A stretch of 64,000 bases of DNA from assembly GCF_016827595.1 (NCBI RefSeq), contig NZ_JAECMS010000005.1, positions 197,277 to 261,276 on the forward strand, in the 5' to 3' direction. The notes beneath the pieces are model-generated. The model was given only the letters and a program-made list of their open reading frames with translations. It did not search any database and was not told where the DNA came from. The number at the start of each line of letters is the position of its first letter. Positions within the stretch are counted from its first letter, which is position 1. The position numbers and the translations under genes are program-made. The DNA is from Luteirhabdus pelagi (lineage in GTDB: Bacteria > Bacteroidota > Bacteroidia > Flavobacteriales > Flavobacteriaceae). Shown here piece after piece: positions 5,567-37,606 of the stretch.

Positions 5567-8380
5567 ATGAAACGATTATTTACAATACTAACGCTACTAT
5601 GCTGTCTTAGCCTTTCGGCACAGATTCAAACCGCTACATTTAGCGTAGATCCACCGACATTCGAAGCTACCGAAGAAATTACGGTCACCGTAACCGATAT
5701 CGACCCAAGTATATGGGGCGTTTCCGATATTTACCTTTGGGCTTGGTACTTCGATCTTGATGACAATAATGCTGGCGATTCGCCTACCAATGGTTCTTGG
5801 ACCAACAGCGATGAGAGTCAGAAGTTTACCGATAATGGCGATGGTTCCTATTCTTACACCTTCACTCCTTCTGTTCTCTATGGAACTTCAGATATCGGAC
5901 GTATTGGAATACTCGCAAAAGCCAAAGATGCCAGCGATATGGGCAATGGAGAACGGAAAACACAGGATCATCTTGTTGAAGTGGGCGGTTTCGAATTGGT
6001 CGTTACGCAACCTTCAACCGAGATCAGCATTGTACCCACGGGCACCAATTTTTCAATTGAAGCGAATACTTCAGAATTGGCAAATTTTGAAGTATTTGCA
6101 AATGGAAACAGTATCGATAACGAAACCAACAGCACTAACTATTCAAACAATTATACCATCAATGAGGACACCTATTTCGAACTCGTTGCAACGGAGGTTA
6201 GCAGTGGTAACCAAAAGACGGCCGCCTTCAATGTAATTCTAACTCCAAACACTCAAAACCTTCCTGTACCCGCAGGAATGGAAGACGGCATCAATTGGGA
6301 TGCCAATAATCCCAATACCGCAACCTTTGTACTTTTCGCCCCGAATAAAGATTTCGTTCACCTGGTTGGAAATTTTAGCGCTAACGAATGGCAACTCTCC
6401 AATGACTATCTTTTGAATAAGGATACGAGTACTAATCGATTTTGGATTACGCTAAATAACTTGGATGAAGCACCAGACGATTTTTTGTTCCAATATGTCA
6501 TTGAGGCCGATATCCGTGTGGCAGACCCTTATGCTACCTATATTTTGGATGAATTCAACGATGCTTTTATTGAAGCAGATACCTTTCAAGACATTCCTGA
6601 ATATCCTAACGGAAAAACCAATCATGCCGTTACCTGGTTCGAAACCAACCCTGAACCCTACAATTGGCAAGTAACGGATTTTGAACGACCGGAACAATCG
6701 GAACTAGTGGTGTACGAACTACTCATTCGTGACTTCGATGCGGACCATAGTTTTGAATCGCTTATCGATCGACTGGAATATCTGGACAATTTGGGTGTGA
6801 ATGCTATTGAACTGATGCCAGTCAGTGAATTCGATGGCAATATCAGTTGGGGCTATAATCCGAGTTTTCATATGGCATTGGACAAATATTATGGTAACAA
6901 AAACTCCTTTAAGGCCTTTGTAGATGCTTGTCACGAACGCGGTATCGCCGTTATTTTAGATGTGGTATACAACCATGCTACGGGTCAAAATCCCTACTTC
7001 CGAATGTATAACGATTGTAATGGTTGTTATGGCGGACAGGCAACGGCTGAAAATCCAATTTTCAATGTTGAGGATCCGAATTCCACATTCTCCTTCTTTA
7101 ACGATATCGACCACGAATCTGTGGAGACGCAGTATTATGTCGATCGCTTAAACAAGTTTTGGCTAGAAGAATACAATATCGATGGCTATCGATTCGATTT
7201 TACCAAAGGGTTCACGAACACACCAGGCGATGGCGGTGCTTATGATGCATCGCGAATTGCGCTTTTGCAACGGATGTATGATGAAATTAGAAGTGTTGAC
7301 CCTTCTGCCTATGTGATTTTAGAACATTTCGCTCCAAACGAAGAAGAAACCGAACTGATTGAATATCAAGCGACATCGAATCCCGATGAACCGGGAATGA
7401 TGGTCTGGAGCAATCATAACTTCCACTATAATGAAGCCACAATGGGCTATAATAGCAATAGTGACTTCTCTTGGATTAACTATCAAAACAGAGGTTGGGA
7501 CACCCCTTCAAATATCGCGTATATGGAAAGTCATGATGAGGAACGCTTGATGTATAAGAATTTGGAATTCGGTAACAGCGAAGGAAGCTACGATGTAACC
7601 GAATTGGCAACGGCTACGGACCGTGTAGAAATGGCGGGGGCTTTCTTTTTCACCATCCCTGGGCCAAAACTGATATGGCAGTTTGGCGAATTGGGATATG
7701 ATTTTAGCATCAATTATTGTGAAGATGGGAGCATCAATAACGCATGTCGGGTAGATCCAAAACCGCTACCCTGGCCGCTTGGATATAACACCCAGCAAGA
7801 TCGAAACGATCTCTACCATGCGTTTCGAACTTTTATCGGACTTCGCCAGCAGAATCCAATTTTTCACACCGATACGTTTAGTTTAGATGTTGGAAATGCG
7901 GATGGGGTCAAAAAGATTCATTTGGAAGACCCTTCAGCAACGGGTGACGAGATTCGATTTGTAACGATTGTTGGGAATTTTAGCGTGTTCGAACAAACCT
8001 TCAATCCCGAGTTTCAGGAAACGGGTACATGGTACAATATGATGGATGGTAGTGTAATTACCGTAAACAACACTAACGAACCCATTACGCTAGCGCCGGG
8101 AGAATATTTCATTTATGCCAATGAAGAATCTGTATTGAATACCTCAAATGTATCGTATAGCACAATTGAAATGTACCCTAACCCTACCGCAGATAGTGTA
8201 TATTTCACTGAAAATGCCACTGAGATTATGATTTTTGATGCGCAGGGTAAAACGCTATTTGTTCAATACAGTTATAATGCAAATTCACCAATAGATCTTT
8301 CAGGATTACCCATCGGACTTTATTTCGCTAAGGCGTTAACTAATAACGGATTAGAATCTTTTAAAATCTTAAAGAAATAA
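5567..8380 (+). CDS. Secreted multidomain GH13 alpha-amylase family enzyme with T9SS sorting domain
   Basis: This 937-residue enzyme hydrolyses alpha-glucans outside the cell or on its surface. A signal peptide (about residues 1-19, ending SLSAQ) is followed by a beta-rich module (about 20-150), an Ig-like stretch, a CBM48-like module (about 245-345, FVLFAPNKDFVHLVGNFS) and the GH13 barrel. Conserved GH13 regions are visible: DVVYNH at 465-470, GYRFDF with nucleophile Asp544, acid/base Glu586 in VILEHF, and MESHDEE with Asp657. All three catalytic acids are present. The last 80 residues form a type A T9SS sorting domain (MYPNPTADSVYF, then GLYFAKA and a basic end). It follows the susCDE-like genes and completes a starch-type locus. 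Exact specificity (amylase, pullulanase or neopullulanase) cannot be read by eye. Confidence 0.93.
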   Translation: MKRLFTILTLLCCLSLSAQIQTATFSVDPPTFEATEEITVTVTDIDPSIWGVSDIYLWAWYFDLDDNNAGDSPTNGSWTNSDESQKFTDNGDGSYSYTFTPSVLYGTSDIGRIGILAKAKDASDMGNGERKTQDHLVEVGGFELVVTQPSTEISIVPTGTNFSIEANTSELANFEVFANGNSIDNETNSTNYSNNYTINEDTYFELVATEVSSGNQKTAAFNVILTPNTQNLPVPAGMEDGINWDANNPNTATFVLFAPNKDFVHLVGNFSANEWQLSNDYLLNKDTSTNRFWITLNNLDEAPDDFLFQYVIEADIRVADPYATYILDEFNDAFIEADTFQDIPEYPNGKTNHAVTWFETNPEPYNWQVTDFERPEQSELVVYELLIRDFDADHSFESLIDRLEYLDNLGVNAIELMPVSEFDGNISWGYNPSFHMALDKYYGNKNSFKAFVDACHERGIAVILDVVYNHATGQNPYFRMYNDCNGCYGGQATAENPIFNVEDPNSTFSFFNDIDHESVETQYYVDRLNKFWLEEYNIDGYRFDFTKGFTNTPGDGGAYDASRIALLQRMYDEIRSVDPSAYVILEHFAPNEEETELIEYQATSNPDEPGMMVWSNHNFHYNEATMGYNSNSDFSWINYQNRGWDTPSNIAYMESHDEERLMYKNLEFGNSEGSYDVTELATATDRVEMAGAFFFTIPGPKLIWQFGELGYDFSINYCEDGSINNACRVDPKPLPWPLGYNTQQDRNDLYHAFRTFIGLRQQNPIFHTDTFSLDVGNADGVKKIHLEDPSATGDEIRFVTIVGNFSVFEQTFNPEFQETGTWYNMMDGSVITVNNTNEPITLAPGEYFIYANEESVLNTSNVSYSTIEMYPNPTADSVYFTENATEIMIFDAQGKTLFVQYSYNANSPIDLSGLPIGLYFAKALTNNGLESFKILKK

Positions 8381-28611: not shown

Positions 28612-28647
28612 AAATCCCTTGAGCCTTGGGTTCAAGGGATTTTTTTA
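28612..28647 (+). terminator. Terminator of the peroxiredoxin operon
   Basis: An 11-bp perfect stem (AAATCCCTTGA / TCAAGGGATTT) with a 9-base loop runs into a T-rich tail, 20 bp after the last stop codon. Confidence 0.9.
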
Positions 28648-28654
28648 TGTCCAA

Positions 28655-28672
28655 ATCACCCATCTGGGTAAT
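28655..28672 (+). promoter_or_regulatory. Operator-like palindrome, copy 1 (before the sensor kinase)
   Basis: ATCACCC-ATCT-GGGTAAT. The same element occurs at 33499 and 34486. A -7-like TAGCATTA begins exactly 22 bp after it (28695), 78 bp before the kinase start. That -7 match is imperfect, so this promoter may need activation. Confidence 0.75.
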
Positions 28673-28779
28673 GGTATGGCAGCATGATTAATGGTAGCAT
28701 TACAAGTGCGACTTTGGCAAATTTTCGACGAGTCGATACAATTTTGTAGCTTTAAATCAACCAATTAAATCAATGCCGC

Positions 28780-31700
28780 ATGCGATATTGGATTTTTCCT
28801 ATATTGACATTGTTATTTCTGAATGGACATGTTTGGGGACAGCAAACTTCCTATCGATTTCAACGCTATGGGATAAACGAAGGCCTGTCGCAAGTAAGCC
28901 TACGCGATCTGGAAATCGATAAAGATGGCCATGTTTGGATTGCTAGCGACAATGGGGTGAACCGGTTTAATGGCAGCTCATTTATGTCGTTTCAACAGCC
29001 TATCGACACTACTGAAATAGGCTTGATATTTAATGAAGTCGGTCATATTCTTGAAGATTCCGATAGCGTCATCTGGATGGGAACCCGTCAAGGATTATCT
29101 CGATACGATCCGAAAACCGAAACATTTACCAATTTTAAAGAAACGGGCAACTGTGCAAACTGTATCATCCATCCCGCTATTTCCTTTCTGAAAGAGTACG
29201 ACGATTTCATATACATAGGAACGGTGGGTGGTTTGTCCCGGATTCATAAAACCTCCTATCAAATAGATTCTTGGCCTTATGTTGAAGGCAAAGTGAACGG
29301 GCCAAAGCGAACGGCCATTCGTGAAATGGATATATTGGATGATGGCAGGTTACTGATCCTCTCGCAAGTGGGCATTTCACTCTTCAACCCAAAAAATGAA
29401 ACCTTCACACATATTACTACAACCGACGGGCTACCAGAAGACAAATTGCAATCTATTTACAGAGATAGCAACAATACCTATTGGATTGGCTGTGAAACAA
29501 AAGGCCTCTTAAAACTTACGGGAAGTTGGGACAGTCCAAGCTTTAAGCACTATCCGCCAATTTTAGGGGAAGGTCCTTCGCATGGTTTCATTTATGAGAT
29601 TACTGAAGATGACAGCGGAATGCTATGGATGGCAACCTTTAACGGTGTAACCTTATTCAACCCAAAAACGGAAACGTTCGAGTACCTTTTTCATAATCCT
29701 GAAGATGAAGCGTCCTTAAGCTCAAACCAAGTATTCGATATAGAAAAAGATGCCCATAATAGAATGTGGCTTTCCACCATTTCGGGCTTGAACGTTTACG
29801 ATCCATATTTAAATCAATTTCAATTAATGACCTCCAAACAAGGAGAAGGAAAGAGCTTAGCAAGCGATAAGACATTTTCAGTTTTTGAAGACTCCAAAGG
29901 GTTTCTTTGGGTGGGAAATTATGAAAACGGACTAACCGTTCTTCCACCAAAAGGTTCAGAAAAGGAGTTTTTACATATTCAACATGGTGAAGGAAACAAA
30001 AATCTATCCAGCCCGCAAGTCTTAGGTATCGAGGAAGACGATAACGGTCGAATTTGGTTGGCAACCTTTAACGGTATCAACATCATCGATTGGCCCGATA
30101 GAGCGACTGACGATTTCAATATTTCACAACTTGATCTAAGCGCTATTCCGAACAATCCACATCTTTCTCGGTACAACTACTTTGTAAAAAAAGATAGCGA
30201 TGGGGTGATGTGGGTGGGAACCCATGGGGCAGGCTTACTAAGAATTGAAGAAGATGAATCGGTACGGCAGTTCAGTTTTAATGAAAAGCCTACAGGTATT
30301 ACCGAAAACATTATCCTTTCGATGAAAATTGATGAAAAGGGAAGAATTTGGCTCGGCACCACCGTTTTAGGATTTGCGATGGTTGAAGATGAAGAAAACC
30401 AAGATCATTTTAAGCGTATCCCGGGAAATAGCATCATTAGTCAACATGGTGTGCACGGCATTTATACCAAAGGTGAAAAGGAGCTGATCATGACCACGGG
30501 GGCAGGGATCTTTCACTTTTATGACAAGGAAGAACTTTTTAAAAATACAGATGTTCGATATTCCCGCTACACCAAAAAGGATGGCCTAAGCGACAATATT
30601 ACCTATGCACTGGTGAAAACAGACAGTGTTCATTATTGGATCAGTACTGGAAATGGGCTAACACGATGGAATACCAAAACAAATACCTTTACGCCATATA
30701 CTACGATTTTTGGAAACAATAAAATGGACTTCAATCAAGGTGCCGCCTGTCTATCAGGGAACGGTCGTTTGTACTTCGGGTCTTCAGGGGTACTCTCATT
30801 CAACCCTGAAACAATTTATGCCAATGCTGTAGCCCCGAAAGTCTATTTCGAAGACTTACGAATTTTGAATGTTCCGGTTCCTATTTCAGAAAGTAAGGAA
30901 AAGGAATTCACCCTTCCAACATCACTTCGCTTTCAACAAAAGCTTACCCTAAAACCGAAACATAAAATATTTTCGATTAAAATAGCTAACGTCAATCACA
31001 CCCTACCCACGGAAACCCACTATGCCTATAAGTTGGATGGTTTTGATGAGCAATGGACCTACACTAAAGACCCATTAATTACGCGTTCCAATTTGGATCC
31101 CGGCAACTATAAACTTATAGCGAAAGCTGCTAACAATGATGGTGTTTGGAGCGCTCCCATTTCGCTTGCCATCGAAATCTTACCTCCCTGGTATCGCTCC
31201 TGGTGGGCGTATCTGCTTTTCCTACTATTCGGAATTGGATTCGTGTATTTTTTGCTGAAACTACGGGTACTTCAGGAACGAAGGGTGGCATTGGCACGAG
31301 CACAGGAACGGGATATGTTTCGAAAGCGAAGCTCTCGCGACTTTCACGATGAAGCCGGCACTCGAATTACAAGAATTGCGCTCATCACCGAATTGGCAAA
31401 ATTGGAAAGTCAGTCGAATGAAAAACTGGAAGAATACCTCTCGCAGATTGAAGGCAACCTTCAAGAGTTAAACAATGGTATGCGCGATTTCATTTGGACA
31501 CTCGATCCTAGTAAAGACAATGCTTTTGATACCTTGAACAGATTTACGGAATTTGCAAGTTCCTTTTGCGAGTGTGCCGGCATACAGTTTAAAAGCGACC
31601 CGATTTCAGAAAAGTTAAAGACGAAAGAACTCAATATGTCGGAACGCCGCCATGTGCTCCTCATTTTAAAAGAAGCATTGAACAATAGTGTCAAACACGC

Positions 31701-31926
31701 AAAACCAAGTGTCATTCGTTTTCAAGTAACTTCAAAACCGGGTTTACTTGGTGTAACGCTGACGGATAATGGATCGGGATTTGCTACCGAAAAAAATACG
31801 AATGGCAATGGGTTGAAAAACATGAAGGAACGTGCCGATGCGCTTGGAGGCACATTGGATATTTCTTCTTCAAAAGAAGGAACTTCCCTAAAGCTAGTAT
31901 TACAAACCACCCGCTTGGGTAATTGA
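28780..31926 (+). CDS. Propeller/Y_Y_Y sensor histidine kinase
   Basis: This 1048-residue membrane sensor has a signal peptide (ending GHVWGQ), then two seven-bladed-type propeller repeats to about residue 690. The blades carry D-x-x-G-x-x-W-x-G/A-T motifs such as DDNGRIWLATFNG. The Y_Y_Y domain follows (YAYKLDGFDEQW, about 715-785), then one membrane helix (about 790-812). The cytoplasmic kinase has phospho-acceptor His856 in FHDEAGTRITRIAL and the ATPase boxes NNSVKHAKPS, DNGSGF and GNGLKNMKERADALGG. It is a NarX/LiaS-type kinase, not a hybrid. The response regulator follows 32 bp later. Propeller sensors of this kind often bind oligosaccharides, but the ligand here is unknown. Confidence 0.93.
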   Translation: MRYWIFPILTLLFLNGHVWGQQTSYRFQRYGINEGLSQVSLRDLEIDKDGHVWIASDNGVNRFNGSSFMSFQQPIDTTEIGLIFNEVGHILEDSDSVIWMGTRQGLSRYDPKTETFTNFKETGNCANCIIHPAISFLKEYDDFIYIGTVGGLSRIHKTSYQIDSWPYVEGKVNGPKRTAIREMDILDDGRLLILSQVGISLFNPKNETFTHITTTDGLPEDKLQSIYRDSNNTYWIGCETKGLLKLTGSWDSPSFKHYPPILGEGPSHGFIYEITEDDSGMLWMATFNGVTLFNPKTETFEYLFHNPEDEASLSSNQVFDIEKDAHNRMWLSTISGLNVYDPYLNQFQLMTSKQGEGKSLASDKTFSVFEDSKGFLWVGNYENGLTVLPPKGSEKEFLHIQHGEGNKNLSSPQVLGIEEDDNGRIWLATFNGINIIDWPDRATDDFNISQLDLSAIPNNPHLSRYNYFVKKDSDGVMWVGTHGAGLLRIEEDESVRQFSFNEKPTGITENIILSMKIDEKGRIWLGTTVLGFAMVEDEENQDHFKRIPGNSIISQHGVHGIYTKGEKELIMTTGAGIFHFYDKEELFKNTDVRYSRYTKKDGLSDNITYALVKTDSVHYWISTGNGLTRWNTKTNTFTPYTTIFGNNKMDFNQGAACLSGNGRLYFGSSGVLSFNPETIYANAVAPKVYFEDLRILNVPVPISESKEKEFTLPTSLRFQQKLTLKPKHKIFSIKIANVNHTLPTETHYAYKLDGFDEQWTYTKDPLITRSNLDPGNYKLIAKAANNDGVWSAPISLAIEILPPWYRSWWAYLLFLLFGIGFVYFLLKLRVLQERRVALARAQERDMFRKRSSRDFHDEAGTRITRIALITELAKLESQSNEKLEEYLSQIEGNLQELNNGMRDFIWTLDPSKDNAFDTLNRFTEFASSFCECAGIQFKSDPISEKLKTKELNMSERRHVLLILKEALNNSVKHAKPSVIRFQVTSKPGLLGVTLTDNGSGFATEKNTNGNGLKNMKERADALGGTLDISSSKEGTSLKLVLQTTRLGN

Positions 31927-31958
31927 TTATTAGCCTTTTAGATTGTACCTTGCTGTCG

Positions 31959-32591
31959 ATGACCCAAAATCGAATCATAAAAATATGTATCGTAGAGGAC
32001 GATGCCCTCATCCTTAAATCGCTCCAAATGGTCTTAAACCAAGCCGAGGGCTATGCGGTAACGGGAACGTTTTTTTCTGCTGAAGCCGCGTTGGAAAACT
32101 TAAAGGAGCATCATCCCGATGTACTGTTGCTCGATATCGACTTACCTGGAATAAGTGGTATTGAAGCCATTCCTAGGTTGAAGAAACTACAGCCGGAATT
32201 AAATATCGTCATGCTTACCGTTCACGATGAATCAGAATTGGTGTTTGCCGCTTTGCGAAAAGGTGCGGTAGGCTATTTAGTAAAAGGTAGCACCTCCAAA
32301 TATCTGTTGCAGGGCATTTCAGAAGTTATTGAAGGCGGCGCACCGATGAGTCCGAGTATTGCGCGTGCCGTCATAGCTTCTTTCGCCCCTAAAACCGAAA
32401 CCGTCCTTACCGATCGTGAAGTTGAAGTGCTCGAAAAACTCAGCAATGGCACCAACAACAAGCAAATCGCAGAAGATTTGTTTGTCTCTACAAATACCAT
32501 AAAAGCCCATATCAAAAATATCTACAAGAAACTGCATGTGCATTCCCGTGCCGAAGCGGTGACAAAAGCCATAAAAAAAGGGCTTATTTAA
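31959..32591 (+). CDS. LuxR/NarL-type response regulator
   Basis: This 210-residue response regulator has a receiver domain (IKICIVEDDALIL, phospho-acceptor Asp59 in LLLDIDLPGISG, Lys in YLVKGSTSK) and a C-terminal LuxR HTH (LTDREVEVLEKLSNGTNNKQ, ADLFVSTNTIKAHIKNIYKK in part). The ATG at 31959 is preferred to an in-frame TTG at 31923 because the receiver domain starts right after it. It is in an operon with the propeller kinase. Three identical operator-like palindromes nearby are its most likely targets. Its stop codon lies inside a hairpin terminator. Confidence 0.93.
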   Translation: MTQNRIIKICIVEDDALILKSLQMVLNQAEGYAVTGTFFSAEAALENLKEHHPDVLLLDIDLPGISGIEAIPRLKKLQPELNIVMLTVHDESELVFAALRKGAVGYLVKGSTSKYLLQGISEVIEGGAPMSPSIARAVIASFAPKTETVLTDREVEVLEKLSNGTNNKQIAEDLFVSTNTIKAHIKNIYKKLHVHSRAEAVTKAIKKGLI

Positions 32592-32600
32592 AAGCCCTTA
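32572..32600. terminator. Terminator between response regulator and the convergent secreted-protein gene
   Basis: AAGGGCTT (32578-32585) pairs with AAGCCCTT (32592-32599), loop ATTTAA. Read on the minus strand it is followed by a seven-T run, so it should end the minus-strand gene efficiently. It overlaps the response regulator stop codon. Confidence 0.85.
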
Positions 32601-32619
32601 TATCATATTTATACTACTT

Positions 32620-33435
32620 CTACTGACCTGTTCCCGCAGTGGTATCTTCATTTATAACTGCTTCACCTTCACAGAAGCAAAGCTCATCGATAAAAATTTC
32701 GCTTCCATCGGTACTCGGAAATTGCTGTGCCAAGGTTATGGCATCCATACCATAGGGCGGTGTTACTGGAAATCCAGCCCCGACCATTTGAATATACAAT
32801 AACATTTTGGATGGTTGTCGGTCTTCAATTGTGGACAATGGAATTCGAAACGGTTTCCAATCGGTTGTGTTTTCAAAAATAACGGAAGCGGTTTCGCTCG
32901 GTTTTACCCCTCCGGCAGGCATATCGTTTTCCATCGCCATATACGGAAAGACCCAAAGCTTATCGCCTTCCTTAAGGTTCGCTTTATAATAACCACAAAG
33001 TGCCTTTGGTATCTCAGGTAAATCGAAGAAAATATTCTGCCGCATAAACACTTCATTTTGCGCCATCACCGCTGCATCGCAATCGCCCTGACAACTCTGA
33101 ATACTCGCACTAAAAGAACTTTTTCGCAGCTGTTCCTTCACATATTCTGGGAGTCTGGCAAACTCTTGTGGTTTCTTCTCCTTTATAAAATCCAATACCG
33201 ATGCATTTTTTAGATGTAAGCCAAAGCCAACTTTGCCGGGTGCCATAAAAACATTGCGCCATTCATATCCGGTTTGGGCATTCGCACCACCATCGACCCC
33301 TGCGATGTTGGTACTCATCCAATTGGTTGGATCGTCGCCACTCCAGTCTTCAAAATTTCCGTTGGGAATTACACAATCCTGCGCAAAGAGATGGGAAGTA
33401 GCTATAAACAATAGTGCTAGTTGAAGTAGTTTCAT
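32620..33435 (-). CDS. Secreted protein of unknown function, possible PCMD-like carbohydrate-binding fold
   Basis: This 271-residue protein starts at the ATG at 33435, giving signal peptide MKLLQLALLF to HLFAQ. The mature start CVIPNGNFEDWSGDDPTNW is the 'NGxFExW' opening common to carbohydrate-binding-like secreted proteins of Bacteroidota. SCQGDCDAAV and ELCFCEGEA add cysteines that may form disulfides. I do not recognise a catalytic site. Its promoter carries operator copy 2 and a -7 box, so it probably belongs to the regulon of the neighbouring two-component system. Confidence 0.7.
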   Translation of the reverse strand: MKLLQLALLFIATSHLFAQDCVIPNGNFEDWSGDDPTNWMSTNIAGVDGGANAQTGYEWRNVFMAPGKVGFGLHLKNASVLDFIKEKKPQEFARLPEYVKEQLRKSSFSASIQSCQGDCDAAVMAQNEVFMRQNIFFDLPEIPKALCGYYKANLKEGDKLWVFPYMAMENDMPAGGVKPSETASVIFENTTDWKPFRIPLSTIEDRQPSKMLLYIQMVGAGFPVTPPYGMDAITLAQQFPSTDGSEIFIDELCFCEGEAVINEDTTAGTGQ

Positions 33436-33468
33436 TTTATTGATTTTTATCTGGTTATTATACGATTT

Positions 33469-33476
33469 CAAAGCTA
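33469..33476 (-). promoter_or_regulatory. -7 box before the PCMD-like secreted-protein gene
   Basis: TAGCTTTG on the minus strand matches TAnnTTTG. It lies exactly 22 bp from operator copy 2 and 33 bp before the start codon at 33435. Confidence 0.65.
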
Positions 33477-33498
33477 TTACAATCATAACCCCTTATCA

Positions 33499-33516
33499 AT
33501 CACCCGATTGGGTAAT
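33499..33516 (-). promoter_or_regulatory. Operator-like palindrome, copy 2 (divergent tpx / secreted-protein spacer)
   Basis: Plus-strand sequence ATCACCC-GATT-GGGTAAT. On the minus side a perfect -7 box lies 22 bp away, the same spacing as in the other two copies. The tpx -7 box is 62 bp away on the other side, so the minus-strand gene is the more likely target. Confidence 0.75.
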
Positions 33517-33578
33517 TTTTAACAGTGCCATACAAAATAGATTCGAATACTTTCAACAAGAAACTGCTATCGAATTGT

Positions 33579-33586
33579 TATTTTTG
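33579..33586 (+). promoter_or_regulatory. -7 box before tpx
   Basis: TATTTTTG matches TAnnTTTG and its last base begins an in-frame GTG at 33586 that could be misread as a start. The tpx ATG is at 33607, 20 bp downstream. Confidence 0.55.
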
Positions 33587-33606
33587 TGTTTCAAAAAAAG
33601 AGCATC

Positions 33607-34107
33607 ATGGCAACAATCACTTTAGGAGGAAATGAAATAAGTACTTCGGGACAGCTTCCCAAAGAAGGCGAAAAAGCACCTGATTTTAAATTGAAGGCAC
33701 AGGACTTATCTACAAAATCGCTTAGCGACTTTAAAGGATCTAGGGTAATCCTAAATATTTTCCCAAGTATCGATACCAACGTTTGTGCTACTTCGGTTCG
33801 GAAGTTTAATGAAAAGGCAACAGACCTCGAGAATACTAAAGTATTGTGCATATCCCGAGACACTCCCTTTGCGCAAAAACGCTTCGCCGATGATGAAGGT
33901 ACCGACAAGGTCATTAACCTTTCCGATGTAATTGACGGTAGTTTCGGAAAAACCTATGGTGTTACCATGACTAGCGGTGCAATGGAAGGGTTTCATTCCA
34001 GAGCCGTGGTAGTATTGGATGAAGAAGGAAACGTTATTCATTCACAACAAGTACCCGAGATTGCCGACGAACCTGACTATCTCTCCGCTTTAAAAACCTT
34101 GTTATAA
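33607..34107 (+). CDS. tpx: Thiol peroxidase
   Basis: This 166-residue atypical 2-Cys peroxiredoxin begins MATITLGGNEISTSGQLP, typical of Tpx. The peroxidatic cysteine is in FPSIDTNVCATSVRKF and the resolving one in TKVLCISRDTPFAQKRF. It reduces peroxides with thioredoxin. I placed the start at the ATG because the upstream GTG falls within the -7 box. Its stop overlaps the dgkA start by one base (TAATG), so the two genes are translationally coupled. Confidence 0.95.
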   Translation: MATITLGGNEISTSGQLPKEGEKAPDFKLKAQDLSTKSLSDFKGSRVILNIFPSIDTNVCATSVRKFNEKATDLENTKVLCISRDTPFAQKRFADDEGTDKVINLSDVIDGSFGKTYGVTMTSGAMEGFHSRAVVVLDEEGNVIHSQQVPEIADEPDYLSALKTLL

Positions 34108-34466
34108 TGTGGGACTCGTACCTGGGTAAACGTTTGAAAGGATTCCGCTATGCTACGATTGGTGCCATCAAATTGTTACGCTATGAGCATAGTATTCAAG
34201 TACAGGCGGTTATTGCCGTTTTAGTAACCATCGCTGGATTTTACTTCGACATTTCTTCAACCGAATGGATGCTTCAGGTATTGGCCATCGGTCTCGTAAT
34301 GGGAATTGAAGGCGTGAACACGGCAGCCGAGGAAATTGCGGATTTTATTCACCCCGACTTTCACAATAAAATAGGATACATCAAGGATGTTGCTGCTGGA
34401 GCGGTATTTTTTGCGGCCATCGCTGCGGTTGTAGTTGCCTGTATCATCTACATTCCAAAATTTTAA
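34107..34466 (+). CDS. dgkA: Diacylglycerol/undecaprenol kinase family protein
   Basis: This 119-residue inner membrane kinase has three membrane helices and the signature EGVNTAAEEIADFI with the catalytic glutamates. LKGFRYATIGAIKLLRYEHS is the amphipathic N-terminal part. Small Bacteroidota proteins of this type are diacylglycerol kinase or undecaprenol kinase, and the lipid substrate cannot be told by eye. It shares one base with the tpx stop codon. There is no obvious functional link with tpx. Confidence 0.9.
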   Translation: MWDSYLGKRLKGFRYATIGAIKLLRYEHSIQVQAVIAVLVTIAGFYFDISSTEWMLQVLAIGLVMGIEGVNTAAEEIADFIHPDFHNKIGYIKDVAAGAVFFAAIAAVVVACIIYIPKF

Positions 34467-34485
34467 AAAGTATCTTTTCTTTTAA

Positions 34486-34503
34486 ATCACCCAATCGGGT
34501 AAT
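34486..34503 (+). promoter_or_regulatory. Operator-like palindrome, copy 3 (before the VWA operon)
   Basis: ATCACCC-AATC-GGGTAAT. A -7 box TAAGTTTG (34526-34533) starts exactly 22 bp after it, with a VWA start at 34568. The operator centre is about 45 bp before the expected transcription start, which suits an activator. Confidence 0.78.
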
Positions 34504-34525
34504 TGACTTCGCAACTCATTGACAG

Positions 34526-34533
34526 TAAGTTTG
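34526..34533 (+). promoter_or_regulatory. -7 box of the VWA operon
   Basis: TAAGTTTG matches TAnnTTTG. Located 34 bp before the VWA gene start and 22 bp after operator copy 3. No proper -33 TTG is present at the usual distance, again consistent with an activated promoter. Confidence 0.6.
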
Positions 34534-34567: not shown

Positions 34568-35968
34568 ATGTCAATTATGAAAAAAGCAATACTTTCTCTA
34601 TTGTTGCTATGTTTCGCCTATTCAGCGATGTCACAAAGCAATGATGCGCCCGCTCCCATCATGTTTATCTACGATGCCAGTGGCTCGATGTGGGGCCAAA
34701 TGAGTGGAAAGACCAAAATGGAAATCGCTTCGGAAGTGCTTTCGGAATCGGTGGATAAACTACCGGAGAATCAAAAAGTCGGCTTGGTCGCCTATGGCCA
34801 CCGCGAAAAAGGTAATTGTAAGGATGTTGAGACCTTGGTAACGCTCGACAATGCTTCAAAAGCATCAGTAACCTCAGCCATTAAAGGCATTAAGCCGTTG
34901 GGAAAAACTCCACTTGCCTATTCTGCTGAAATGGTCATCGACCAATTGCGAAAAGCAAAAAACCCCGCAACGATTATCTTGATTACCGATGGAATCGAAT
35001 CTTGTAACGGCAACATCTGCGATGTGGTGAAAGCCGCTAAAAAAGAAGGCATCGACTTCAAACTTCATATCGTAGGCTTCGGTCTTAAAGATAGCGAAAC
35101 CGGTCAGTTGAAATGCGCTGCCGAAGCTGGGGATGGCAACTATTACGATGCCGCCGATGCGGGTGGCTTAAGTGAAGTGATGAATGAAGCGGTGGCGGAA
35201 ACAATCGACAAAAAAGAGGGTAATTTTGGGGTGTATGCAATCAAAAACGGTCAGGCTATTGATGCCTATGTAACGGCGTATAAAGCAGGAACCGAAGAAA
35301 GCGTTAATTCCCTTCGTACCTATGGTGAAACACGGTATATGTATCTTCCCGAAGGAACGTACGATTTAGTTGCGTACCCACTAGGTAGCAGCGTGGAAGC
35401 CATAAAATTTCCAGGTGAAAAAAGCCTGGAAGATCAAAAAACGGAGCGAACCATTAGCTTCGATGGTGGGAAAGTTGCCATCAATCCTACTAACAATGGC
35501 GAAAATTGGGATTGTACTGTTTCAATCGTAAACAAAGAAGGGAAACGCGTAGCTGGCGGACGTACCTACACCCGAATTAAAGAGATTGAAGTTAATCCAG
35601 GCACCTACGATATACACTTGCAAGCCTTGCAAATTAAGGGAATGCATACCAATACAATATTGGAGGATGTGGTTATTAAAAGTGGGGAAACGACACCCGT
35701 CACCTACGATTTTACTTCTGGGAATTTCAAAGTTCATGTAATGGTGAACGGGGAGCACGTAGACTCGATGGTGCAAATTGTGGATGTCGATACCGATAAA
35801 AGCGTGGTCGGCGGCCGTACCTATAATCGGGGTGTCGACTTTATCATGAATCCAGGCAACTATGAAGTCACCGTTACGCCAATAAGCATTTATAAGCACC
35901 TTCCTAAAAAGAAGTTTTCATATTCCTTGAAACAGGGTGAAACCCATACTGAAACCGTTAACTACTAA
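34568..35968 (+). CDS. Secreted von Willebrand factor A domain protein
   Basis: This 466-residue exported protein has a signal peptide (ending AYSAMSQ). A VWA domain (about 30-220) shows a complete MIDAS: DASGSMWGQ, then TPL in GKTPLAYSA and ITDGIESC. Cysteines in GNCKDVET and SCNGNICDV may pair. The C-terminal half contains two similar beta modules, each with a GGRTY motif followed by PGTYDI or PGNYEV, resembling PEGA-type surface-binding repeats. It heads an operon with two paralogous genes (gaps of 2 and 1 bp) and is preceded by operator copy 3. Starting at a second ATG three codons on would make no difference. Function unknown beyond metal-dependent protein binding. Confidence 0.85.
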   Translation: MSIMKKAILSLLLLCFAYSAMSQSNDAPAPIMFIYDASGSMWGQMSGKTKMEIASEVLSESVDKLPENQKVGLVAYGHREKGNCKDVETLVTLDNASKASVTSAIKGIKPLGKTPLAYSAEMVIDQLRKAKNPATIILITDGIESCNGNICDVVKAAKKEGIDFKLHIVGFGLKDSETGQLKCAAEAGDGNYYDAADAGGLSEVMNEAVAETIDKKEGNFGVYAIKNGQAIDAYVTAYKAGTEESVNSLRTYGETRYMYLPEGTYDLVAYPLGSSVEAIKFPGEKSLEDQKTERTISFDGGKVAINPTNNGENWDCTVSIVNKEGKRVAGGRTYTRIKEIEVNPGTYDIHLQALQIKGMHTNTILEDVVIKSGETTPVTYDFTSGNFKVHVMVNGEHVDSMVQIVDVDTDKSVVGGRTYNRGVDFIMNPGNYEVTVTPISIYKHLPKKKFSYSLKQGETHTETVNY

Positions 35969-35970
35969 AG

Positions 35971-36612
35971 ATGAAAGCACTCAGAAATTCGCTTATCATT
36001 CTTGCAATAGGATTGTTGGCCGCTACACCTTCCGCTGGTCAGAATGAGGTGATGCCCATCGGTTTTTTCGCTCCAGAATTTTCAGAAGGTCATACTATCT
36101 ATCTTTTTAACCTAGAAGAAACGAAAACGAAAATATCAGGGCTGGAAAAACCAATCGATAGCCTCACGTTTAAAAAGCTCGGGTATAACATGGTAATTGA
36201 TTACGCACCCTCGTGGTTCGAACCTGTGTTCAACAAATTGGACTATGGTATTTTCTATATTGGTGTGAAACGACTGGGCTCAGAATATGTAGAGGTAATT
36301 GCCAATGAAGAAACTGGAAAAACCATTTATATGAAGCGGCATGCAGGAGAGTTTGTTTCTTGGGAAGAGTTTTTGTTATCGATGCATTCGGTGGAATTCG
36401 ATACCGAAGGTCAAAAAGTCTATGATCATTGGATGGTAAAGTCGGCTGGAAGGGTGTACGATCGGAATACTTTCTTCCGACCGAAGTATATGGAAGGCGA
36501 TTGGATGGAGGTTGAAATTCTCGATAATGATTTTCGAGCGACTGGAAAAACTGGTTGGATTCGCTGGCGAAAGGATGGCAAATTATTAATTCGATATAAC
36601 TTACTCTCTTGA
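35971..36612 (+). CDS. Secreted protein of unknown function, paralogue of the next gene
   Basis: This 213-residue protein has a signal peptide ending in TPSAGQ. I do not recognise the family. It is mostly beta-strand, with a segment WFEPVFNKLDYGIFYIGV and an ending GWIRWRKDGKLLIRYNLLS. The downstream protein shares the same layout and ending (GWLRWRKDQKLLIDYSISH), so the two are tandem paralogues. MKRHAGEFVSWEEFLL corresponds to VDKNAGELLYWPSFLL in the paralogue. It lies 2 bp after the VWA gene, so all three probably form one system. An SH3-like fold is possible but not shown. Confidence 0.72.
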   Translation: MKALRNSLIILAIGLLAATPSAGQNEVMPIGFFAPEFSEGHTIYLFNLEETKTKISGLEKPIDSLTFKKLGYNMVIDYAPSWFEPVFNKLDYGIFYIGVKRLGSEYVEVIANEETGKTIYMKRHAGEFVSWEEFLLSMHSVEFDTEGQKVYDHWMVKSAGRVYDRNTFFRPKYMEGDWMEVEILDNDFRATGKTGWIRWRKDGKLLIRYNLLS

Positions 36613-36613
36613 T

Positions 36614-37606
36614 ATGAAAAAGCTTATCAAACCGGCAAGTATTGCGTTTTATATATTAATCGCACTGGTTTTTTTTATCATCGGATTGTACTTCGCTGGT
36701 TTTATAGGAGCCGGCAAGAATCAAGGATTGGCAGGAGGAGCAATCGTCTTGGGGTATGGTGTTCTATTTGGCGGACTCGCGTTTATAGGTTCCTTCTTTA
36801 TCGCTTATCATGTAGCACATAAATGGATTGTTCGCTGCAACTGGATAGTATTGGTTATATTAGCCATGACATACGGTATCACCCATTACCGATTCCTTCA
36901 AAATAAAAAGGATAAAGCTCCTGTGCAAACCACTCCTCCAGTCAAAACCACCGAACCCATTTCTTTCCTGTCAACAACCGCAAGTAGGTCTCGGTCGCTT
37001 AAAACTTCAATAAAAAGAGATATACTCAATACCGATTCTTCTTCAGCAATAGGCCTCGGCTTCTTCAAACCAAATTTTTATGAGTATTCCACGCTGTATT
37101 TCTATGGAAACATCAACTGGGAAAAAGGTTTTGCGGAACATTTACCCCAAGATAGTATCTCACTACAACAAAATCAGACTGGAGGTTTCGACCTAAGAAG
37201 TGCGCCTCCCTATCTTTGGCCAGCATACCATAACACCGAATATGGTGAATTCTATTTTAAGGTTTTTGCCGTTGGTTACGATTTCATAACGGTGGAAGTG
37301 AATACCAAAACCCAACAAAAAGTCTATGTCGACAAAAATGCTGGCGAATTGCTGTATTGGCCTTCCTTTCTCCTTCAATTGAATACGGTTTCGATGGTTG
37401 AAGAGCATTCGCAGCCCATTCGCATAAAACCCTTAGCTCATGCCGGAACCGTTGCGCAGGATTTCAAATCCTTACGTCCGCTGACTGTTGAAGGCGATTG
37501 GCTTCAGGTAGCGCTGAAAAACGAAAAAAACCAGACCGTCGCTACTGGATGGCTTCGATGGCGAAAGGATCAAAAACTGTTAATCGACTATTCCATTTCA
37601 CACTAA
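36614..37606 (+). CDS. Membrane-anchored paralogue with C-terminal domain like the preceding gene product
   Basis: This 330-residue protein has three hydrophobic helices in the first 95 residues (including FYILIALVFFIIGLYFAGFI and a WIVLVILAMTYGI segment), then a proline/threonine linker (APVQTTPPVKTTEPI). A periplasmic C-terminal domain (about 140-330) follows. That domain aligns by eye with the previous gene product (IGLGFFKPNF against PIGFFAPEF, YGEFYFKVFAVG against YGIFYIGVKRLG, and the shared WRWRKD-type ending). It starts 1 bp after the previous stop. The function is unknown. It may anchor the same kind of module to the inner membrane that its neighbour exports. Confidence 0.72.
   Translation: MKKLIKPASIAFYILIALVFFIIGLYFAGFIGAGKNQGLAGGAIVLGYGVLFGGLAFIGSFFIAYHVAHKWIVRCNWIVLVILAMTYGITHYRFLQNKKDKAPVQTTPPVKTTEPISFLSTTASRSRSLKTSIKRDILNTDSSSAIGLGFFKPNFYEYSTLYFYGNINWEKGFAEHLPQDSISLQQNQTGGFDLRSAPPYLWPAYHNTEYGEFYFKVFAVGYDFITVEVNTKTQQKVYVDKNAGELLYWPSFLLQLNTVSMVEEHSQPIRIKPLAHAGTVAQDFKSLRPLTVEGDWLQVALKNEKNQTVATGWLRWRKDQKLLIDYSISH

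Follow-up and report, generated by a model that had tools for sequence, protein, structure and literature searches.

The sensor part of Bacteroides hybrid two-component systems (HTCSs) is built of Reg_prop and Y_Y_Y domains, and the regulators DesR and VraR belong to Firmicute systems with other operators and signals. NarL of Escherichia coli activates ogt from a single site at -44.5, just upstream of the -35 element (PMC7419079), and ComA of Bacillus subtilis is a NarL-family regulator that prefers inverted hexamers with a 4-bp spacer (PMC4797271). Here we describe a locus of Luteirhabdus pelagi (genome G000), contained in a 64,000-nt stretch of contig NZ_JAECMS010000005.1 (hereafter, the window), in which copies of an 18-bp element, ATCACCC-N4-GGGTAAT, are found around the genes for a sensor histidine kinase and a NarL/LuxR-type response regulator (31959-32591). 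With a probability of roughly three in four, the element is the operator of this regulator, which would activate its own genes and genes encoding exported proteins; we infer binding, phosphorylation and activation from the comparisons below.

Comparison with the described systems revealed the following similarities and differences: (i) the regulator has the receiver and GerE domains of the family of NarL, known from the NarX/NarL system and its targets ogt and yeaR, and matches the structure 1a04 (E 5.7e-26); however, NarL sites are 7-2-7 inverted repeats, whereas the elements described here are hexamers of another sequence separated by four variable bases and thus fall outside the NarL operator class, and the regulator scores 127.7 bits with the NCBIfam model for NarL, below its 250-bit cut-off; (ii) the consensus YYACCC-N4-GGGTRA has the ComA-type geometry, although only the geometry is shared, since the ComA hexamer is TTGCGG, and the additional direct-repeat site of ComA promoters is not seen at the window element; (iii) of the solved structures, those of DesR and VraR are nearest in sequence (4ldz, E 6.4e-29; 5hev, E 4.2e-27); (iv) the window kinase shares the Reg_prop and Y_Y_Y sensor part with HTCSs but is encoded separately from the regulator, whose DNA-binding domain is LuxR-type rather than AraC-type, and no HTCS-like fusion of kinase, receiver and DNA-binding domain is present at the locus; and (v) paralogous operons of histidine kinase, response regulator and OmpA-family genes have the same gene order, 18-bp element and 22-bp spacing and differ in operator sequence and recognition helix. 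Both regulator domains score over their Pfam cut-offs (PF00072, E 2.5e-27; PF00196, E 4e-22), in the NarL/FixJ (LuxR-type) architecture. Among the best 25 of 118 named NCBIfam response-regulator equivalogs (MctR, MadR, NarL, GacA and others) none passes its cut-off, the highest score being 156.4 for MctR against a cut-off of 300 bits. Residue D59, which is invariant in three aligned orthologues, is the predicted phospho-acceptor aspartate, judging from its LLLDxxLPG context.

The initial annotation of this DNA had reported three copies of the element, all with the 14 fixed bases intact and each exactly 22 bp from a -7 position, the first with a weaker box. The coordinates and bases were verified, TA begins exactly 22 bp beyond each copy, and the box of the first copy, TAGCATTA, is indeed weak in comparison with TAnnTTTG. 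In a genome scan, which had been proposed as a check, the exact pattern has three matches in the whole 3,394,992-base genome, all of them these window sites, against an expectation of about 0.025 per genome from base counting alone. A fourth copy, absent from the earlier list, was found in the window with one mismatch. The copies and their boxes are:

28655-28672, plus strand: operator copy 1, before the kinase gene, exact match
28695-28702, plus strand: weak -7-like box TAGCATTA, 22 bp from copy 1
33499-33516, minus strand: operator copy 2, exact match, preceding the PCMD-like gene (in most relatives, a gene of the OmpA family)
33469-33476, minus strand (33476-33469 as read): -7 box TAGCTTTG, 22 bp from copy 2
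34486-34503, plus strand: operator copy 3, before the VWA operon, exact match
34526-34533, plus strand: -7 box TAAGTTTG, 22 bp from copy 3
31906-31923, plus strand: operator copy 4, ACCACCCGCTTGGGTAAT, in the last six kinase codons, one mismatch
31946-31953, plus strand: -7-like box TACCTTGC, 22 bp from copy 4, placing the predicted start 1 nt ahead of the regulator ATG

The possibility that copy 2 faces the tpx gene was ruled out, as there is no box at 22 bp on that side (AGATTCGA). An inverted repeat that resembles a terminator and has a T run (28617-28647) lies directly before copy 1 and ends the upstream operon. At up to two mismatches, the genome holds 36 matches (22 forward and 14 reverse), near the background of 21 (15 and 6) obtained with the pattern read backwards, and such matches were rejected as a class as regulon members, their counts being not far from background. 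Among 26 loci around one- and two-mismatch matches, TA together with at least four of the six consensus box bases at 22 bp was found at two, namely copy 4 and a site before a lipoprotein gene. A scan of viral contigs with part of the motif returned 49 stretches with one match each.

The search of named genomes with the regulator yielded 15 loci, of which 11 are orthologous (L062-L072, from Thermobacterium salinum, Altibacter, Marinirhabdus, Aequorivita and metagenome-assembled genomes (MAGs); 75-98% identity) and four, at 26-28% identity, were dropped. Adding the window and the more diverged loci of G120 (67%) and G400 (62%) gives 14 loci; 13 of them enter the counts for the OmpA/PCMD and VWA promoters, as L069 lacks these neighbours, and L062, a near-copy of the window, was left out of a pool of 46 elements. 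The element is retained with at most one mismatch at all 13 OmpA/PCMD promoters and with at most two at all 13 VWA promoters, and TA lies exactly 22 bp downstream in every promoter of both sets. The box reads TAnnTTTG at 13/13 OmpA/PCMD promoters, and TAnnTTTG (5/13) or TAnnTTTA (8/13) at the VWA promoters. At the kinase/regulator junction, 12 of the 14 loci have the element with at most two mismatches and the other two with three; TA stands at 22 bp in seven and at 21 bp in six. The kinase promoter is the least conserved site (at most two mismatches in 9/14 loci), and of the ten copies with up to three mismatches eight have TA at 22 bp and one at 21 bp. TAnnTTTG is found at none of the 14 junctions and at none of these ten kinase promoters, so the flavobacterial sigma-A signature, TAnnTTTG at the -7 position, is present in two of the four promoter classes. 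In the pool, TA starts at 22 bp in 37 elements and at 21 bp in seven, each other offset between 17 and 27 occurring in at most six; both halves of the consensus YYACCC-N4-GGGTRA are near constant, the variable parts being the N4 and most of the spacer. In L069 (MAG Co_bin.74), two elements lie 47 bp apart before the kinase gene (6605-6669), the other locus genes being not nearby.

Copy 4 lies within the coding sequence of the kinase. The peptide written by the junction element is TTRLGN in 11 of the 14 loci, TTRLSK in L063, TTQEGK in G400 (L098) and, followed by six more residues, ITQMGD in G120 (L097). The second threonine codon is ACC in all 13 rows showing it (ACC usage is 41%), the leucine codon ends in TG in 12/12 rows with leucine, and the glycine codon is GGT except in L069. 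Coding constraint alone was rejected as the origin of copy 4, since the peptides of G120 and G400 differ over the DNA element and synonymous codons are frozen. With the -7 box placed at -12 to -5, as in Flavobacterium psychrophilum (PMC9723704), 12 of the 13 box-bearing loci have the predicted start 1-5 nt ahead of the regulator ATG, and L064 has it 14 nt ahead; in that paper, 5.5% of the mRNAs are called leaderless. Through the junction copy, the regulator gene thus probably has a promoter of its own that yields a near-leaderless mRNA. The junction box fits TAnnTTGY in 6/13 loci, the SM5 form of that study, for which its authors consider an alternative sigma factor most likely (PMC9723704). 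The window box TACCTTGC (31946-31953) also fits this class. The initial annotation assigned the three exact copies to the promoters of the kinase/regulator pair, the PCMD-like gene and the VWA operon; the amendments are that the regulator probably has a separate promoter and that the kinase site is the least conserved.

For the analysis of co-occurrence, 397 Flavobacteriaceae genomes were scanned with a 46-bp composite of element and box, YACCC-N4-GGGTRAT-N22-TAnnTTTR. The composite occurs in ten genomes, in nine of them at least twice, and the pattern read backwards has one match. Nine genomes encode the regulator (E up to 1e-55), and they are exactly those with at least two composites. The sole match outside them, in G169, was taken as chance; the regulator was not found in this genome at E 1e-55, and the only locus gene in the 10 kb examined is a thioredoxin-family match. 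Since this co-occurrence is partly linkage, two separable targets were examined, the VWA gene and the lipoprotein gene.

The VWA gene is present in 27 of the 397 genomes. A boxed element stands upstream of it in 9/9 genomes with the regulator and in 3/18 without it, the remaining 15 having no boxed element, although no more than about 196 bp of upstream sequence is available at the G379 locus; two-mismatch matches 0.65 and 1.07 kb upstream of the gene in G294 and G079 have no box. The three exceptions, G105, G307 and G213, possess, away from the VWA locus, a paralogous regulator of 45-50% identity, which at E 1e-40 was not found in the other 15 VWA-bearing, regulator-less genomes. In G070 and G043 the site is empty: nhaC, prx, trx, DUF6952, tpx, dgkA and VWA are kept, no kinase, regulator or PCMD-like gene interrupts the order DUF6952-tpx-dgkA-VWA, and the VWA promoter has no element. 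Thus, the VWA operator is gained or lost together with the cassette.

The second target, a putative lipoprotein gene, lies outside the window, on another contig of the same genome, and is present in 27/397 genomes. Upstream of it is a two-mismatch element (G000:C22:700725-700742) with TATCTTGG at exactly 22 bp. An element with at most two mismatches within 200 bp upstream, a criterion set after 14 of these genomes had been seen, was found in seven of the nine genomes with the regulator, in all three with the paralogous regulator (G105, G307, G213) and in two (G316, G380) of the remaining 15; shuffled upstream regions contained it in 14 of 10,800 cases. Five further regulator-bearing genomes were considered, one of which has no lipoprotein gene at E 1e-40. 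The sequence comparison predicts that the regulon extends beyond the locus to this unlinked gene. The local regulon of the initial annotation is partly supported, and is incomplete in that the fourth copy was overlooked and the lipoprotein gene carries the element in 7/9 regulator-bearing genomes. Its choice of the LuxR-type regulator as binder is still the best reading, given the co-occurrence in 9/397 genomes and the missing VWA element where the cassette is missing, with binding and the sign of regulation remaining matters of inference.

In the proposed pathway, the kinase would read a signal outside the cytoplasm and phosphorylate the regulator. A regulator dimer would then bind YYACCC-N4-GGGTRA, two hexamers in inverted orientation 4 bp apart, in a slot that has its centre near -43.5 and reaches the TTG at -33, and from there would most likely recruit RNA polymerase. 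The predicted targets are the kinase gene, the regulator gene with its own promoter, the OmpA-family gene in relatives, the PCMD-like gene, the VWA operon and, in most relatives, the unlinked lipoprotein gene. If the box is placed at -12 to -5, the element runs from -52 to -35 with its centre at -43.5, and its end overlaps the TTG in 12/13 OmpA/PCMD, 12/13 VWA, 7/14 junction and 0/10 kinase elements. Activation with positive autoregulation is favoured because the slot resembles that of NarL at -44.5 and the hexamer geometry matches that of ComA, and because the weaker kinase and regulator boxes fit dependence on an activator.

Several observations weigh against this proposal. The kinase-promoter copy has three or more mismatches in 5/14 loci. 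The composite was drafted after the loci of seven of the nine genomes had been seen (the window, L062, L063 and L065-L068), G120 and G400 being new, and its co-occurrence with the regulator is mostly linkage. The lipoprotein site is absent from two of the nine regulator-bearing genomes (G120, G400), and from G171, one of the remaining 15, in spite of a paralogous regulator; it is present with two mismatches in G316 and G380, in which this regulator was not found at E 1e-55. In the four further regulator-bearing genomes that have the lipoprotein gene, the element has one mismatch in one, three in another, and is missing in two. Finally, the consensus -7 boxes and the -33 TTG of the OmpA/PCMD promoters would also suit a strong promoter under repression.

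The last point leads to the main rival explanation, in which the same regulator binds the same element as a repressor, with the operator end covering the -33 TTG and the signal lifting repression. Promoters with TAnnTTTG in 13/13 OmpA/PCMD cases, and with the TTG at the element end in 12/13 of these and 12/13 VWA cases, may need no activator; however, the boxes of the kinase and regulator promoters are weak (TAnnTTTG in 0/10 and 0/14), as expected under activator dependence, the TTG is missing in 10/10 kinase elements, and the slot, with its centre near -43.5, is similar to the one at -44.5 from which NarL activates. We regard repression as unlikely, though worth keeping in mind. It is distinctly improbable that another transcription factor binds the element and the response regulator is merely its neighbour: G316 and G380 do keep the lipoprotein site without this regulator, but it is this regulator for which the co-occurrence with the composite in the same 9/397 genomes was computed, the empty-site genomes keep the neighbours from nhaC to VWA and have no element, and the paralogous kinase-regulator operons carry a related operator at equivalent places. 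Shared ancestry or linkage of the promoters alone, which would make the element uninformative on the regulator, would be suggested by the position of all window sites within 6 kb, their movement with the cassette and the relatedness of the genomes; it is very improbable, as the unlinked lipoprotein site follows the regulator (7/9 versus 2/15) and the halves are near constant, in contrast to the N4 and to most of the 22-bp spacer. A dispersed repeat or RNA hairpin (attenuator or terminator) is hardly credible, for although CCC-N4-GGG could pair in RNA and copy 4 is transcribed within the kinase mRNA, the genome holds only three exact copies, the element lies upstream of the predicted starts and thus outside the mRNAs supposedly controlled, and none of the four copies in the window is followed by a T run.

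Paralogous kinase-regulator operons were found in G213, G105, G307, G171 and G120, with an OmpA-family gene behind them in the 4/4 loci that reach that far. Their related operator, ATACCCC-ANNN-RRGSGAT, was written after being read off the same loci, where it precedes the kinase gene in 2/5, occupies the junction in 4/5 and precedes the OmpA gene in 4/4 loci holding the gap; a two-mismatch match before the kinase gene of a third locus is on the other strand and was not counted. At exactly 22 bp the OmpA promoters have GAGATTTG, GATATTTG, GAGATTTG or GACTTTTG, with the shared form NANNTTTG in all four loci. In each of the four loci, the first two bases of this box are GA rather than TA (GANNTTTG; L132 8004-8030), which is unusual for a -7 box. 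A third type of operator, found by eye behind the regulator gene, is TTCCCCTATTTTCGGTAT in G316 and ATCCCCCGTTTTCGGTAT in G400, with CAATTTTA at 22 bp in both. The G316 pair of this type (L263 7344-15000) lies just upstream of nhaC-prx-tpx-dgkA; ftsK follows dgkA, and nothing between them matches the genes of the VWA operon.

The operator classes seen are YYACCC-N4-GGGTRA, ATACCCC-N4-GAGCGAT and ATCCCCC-N4-TCGGTAT, and the recognition helices are KAHIKNIYKKL in the window type, KTHIKNIYSKL or KTHIKNIYGKL in the second type and RKHIENIYKKL in a common paralogue. The regulator of G213, G105 and G307 was rejected as a plain orthologue of the window regulator, since G120 has both types. The branch by which it connects to the window clade has a support of 53/8 in the tree, and the long-branched G079a and G224par2 join that clade earlier (90/89), a kind of join that, as the program warns, may be false; its status as a paralogue is safe, that of nearest sister is not. 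Tentatively, and at somewhat less than even odds, these systems may form a clan of paralogous flavobacterial two-component systems with one geometry (18-bp operator, 22 bp and -7 box, the operator being also at the end of the kinase gene and giving a near-leaderless regulator mRNA), with operator and recognition helix co-diverging into at least three operator classes, and with a paralogue that apparently took over the VWA and lipoprotein promoters of the G213/G105 lineage.

The genes of the window locus are:

28780-31926, plus strand: sensor histidine kinase gene (Reg_prop, Y_Y_Y, HisKA_3 and HATPase_c domains)
31959-32591, plus strand: response regulator gene, the proposed binder (receiver and LuxR-type (GerE) domain)
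32620-33435, minus strand: gene for an exported PCMD-like protein, export being read from its N-terminus
33607-34107: gene for a redoxin/AhpC-TSA protein (tpx)
34107-34466: gene for a DgkA-type kinase
34577-35968, plus strand: gene for a VWA-domain protein, the first of the target operon
35971-37606, plus strand: two more VWA-operon genes (213 and 330 aa), with no Pfam family over cut-off

Export of the products was judged from their N-termini, which, on reading of the sequence, look like export signals. The PCMD-like protein (32620-33435) matches no Pfam family at E 0.1. Its structural model (pLDDT 64.7) has as top matches BT3745, BT_2081 and BVU_0247, presumably PCMD proteins, at E 2.9e-6 to 4e-4 and with query TM-scores of only 0.31-0.36, and thus lends weak fold support to the putative PCMD assignment. 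The model of the 213-aa protein of the VWA operon is of low confidence (pLDDT 55.3). The PCMD-like gene is longer in most relatives, where a gene of the OmpA family separates it from copy 2; no match to this OmpA-family gene was found in the open reading frame list of the window, in T. salinum, or in L071 and L072. The window has, in 32592-33435, a single PCMD-like gene of 271 aa and no OmpA-family gene, and the PCMD-like protein of L061 is 518 aa long.

The motif, in four spellings, had no match in the literature text searched, and no such regulon was found among the matches listed in the literature on such kinases, regulators and regulons; within the scope of these searches, the regulon is undescribed but of a well-known kind. 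The locus offers a precise, testable operator with its regulator, a target list and natural regulator-less controls. An operator inside kinase codons, together with the predicted near-leaderless regulator mRNA, makes a compact feedback design. If the proposal is true, diverged operators with a fixed geometry would reveal the recognition-helix residues that set specificity.

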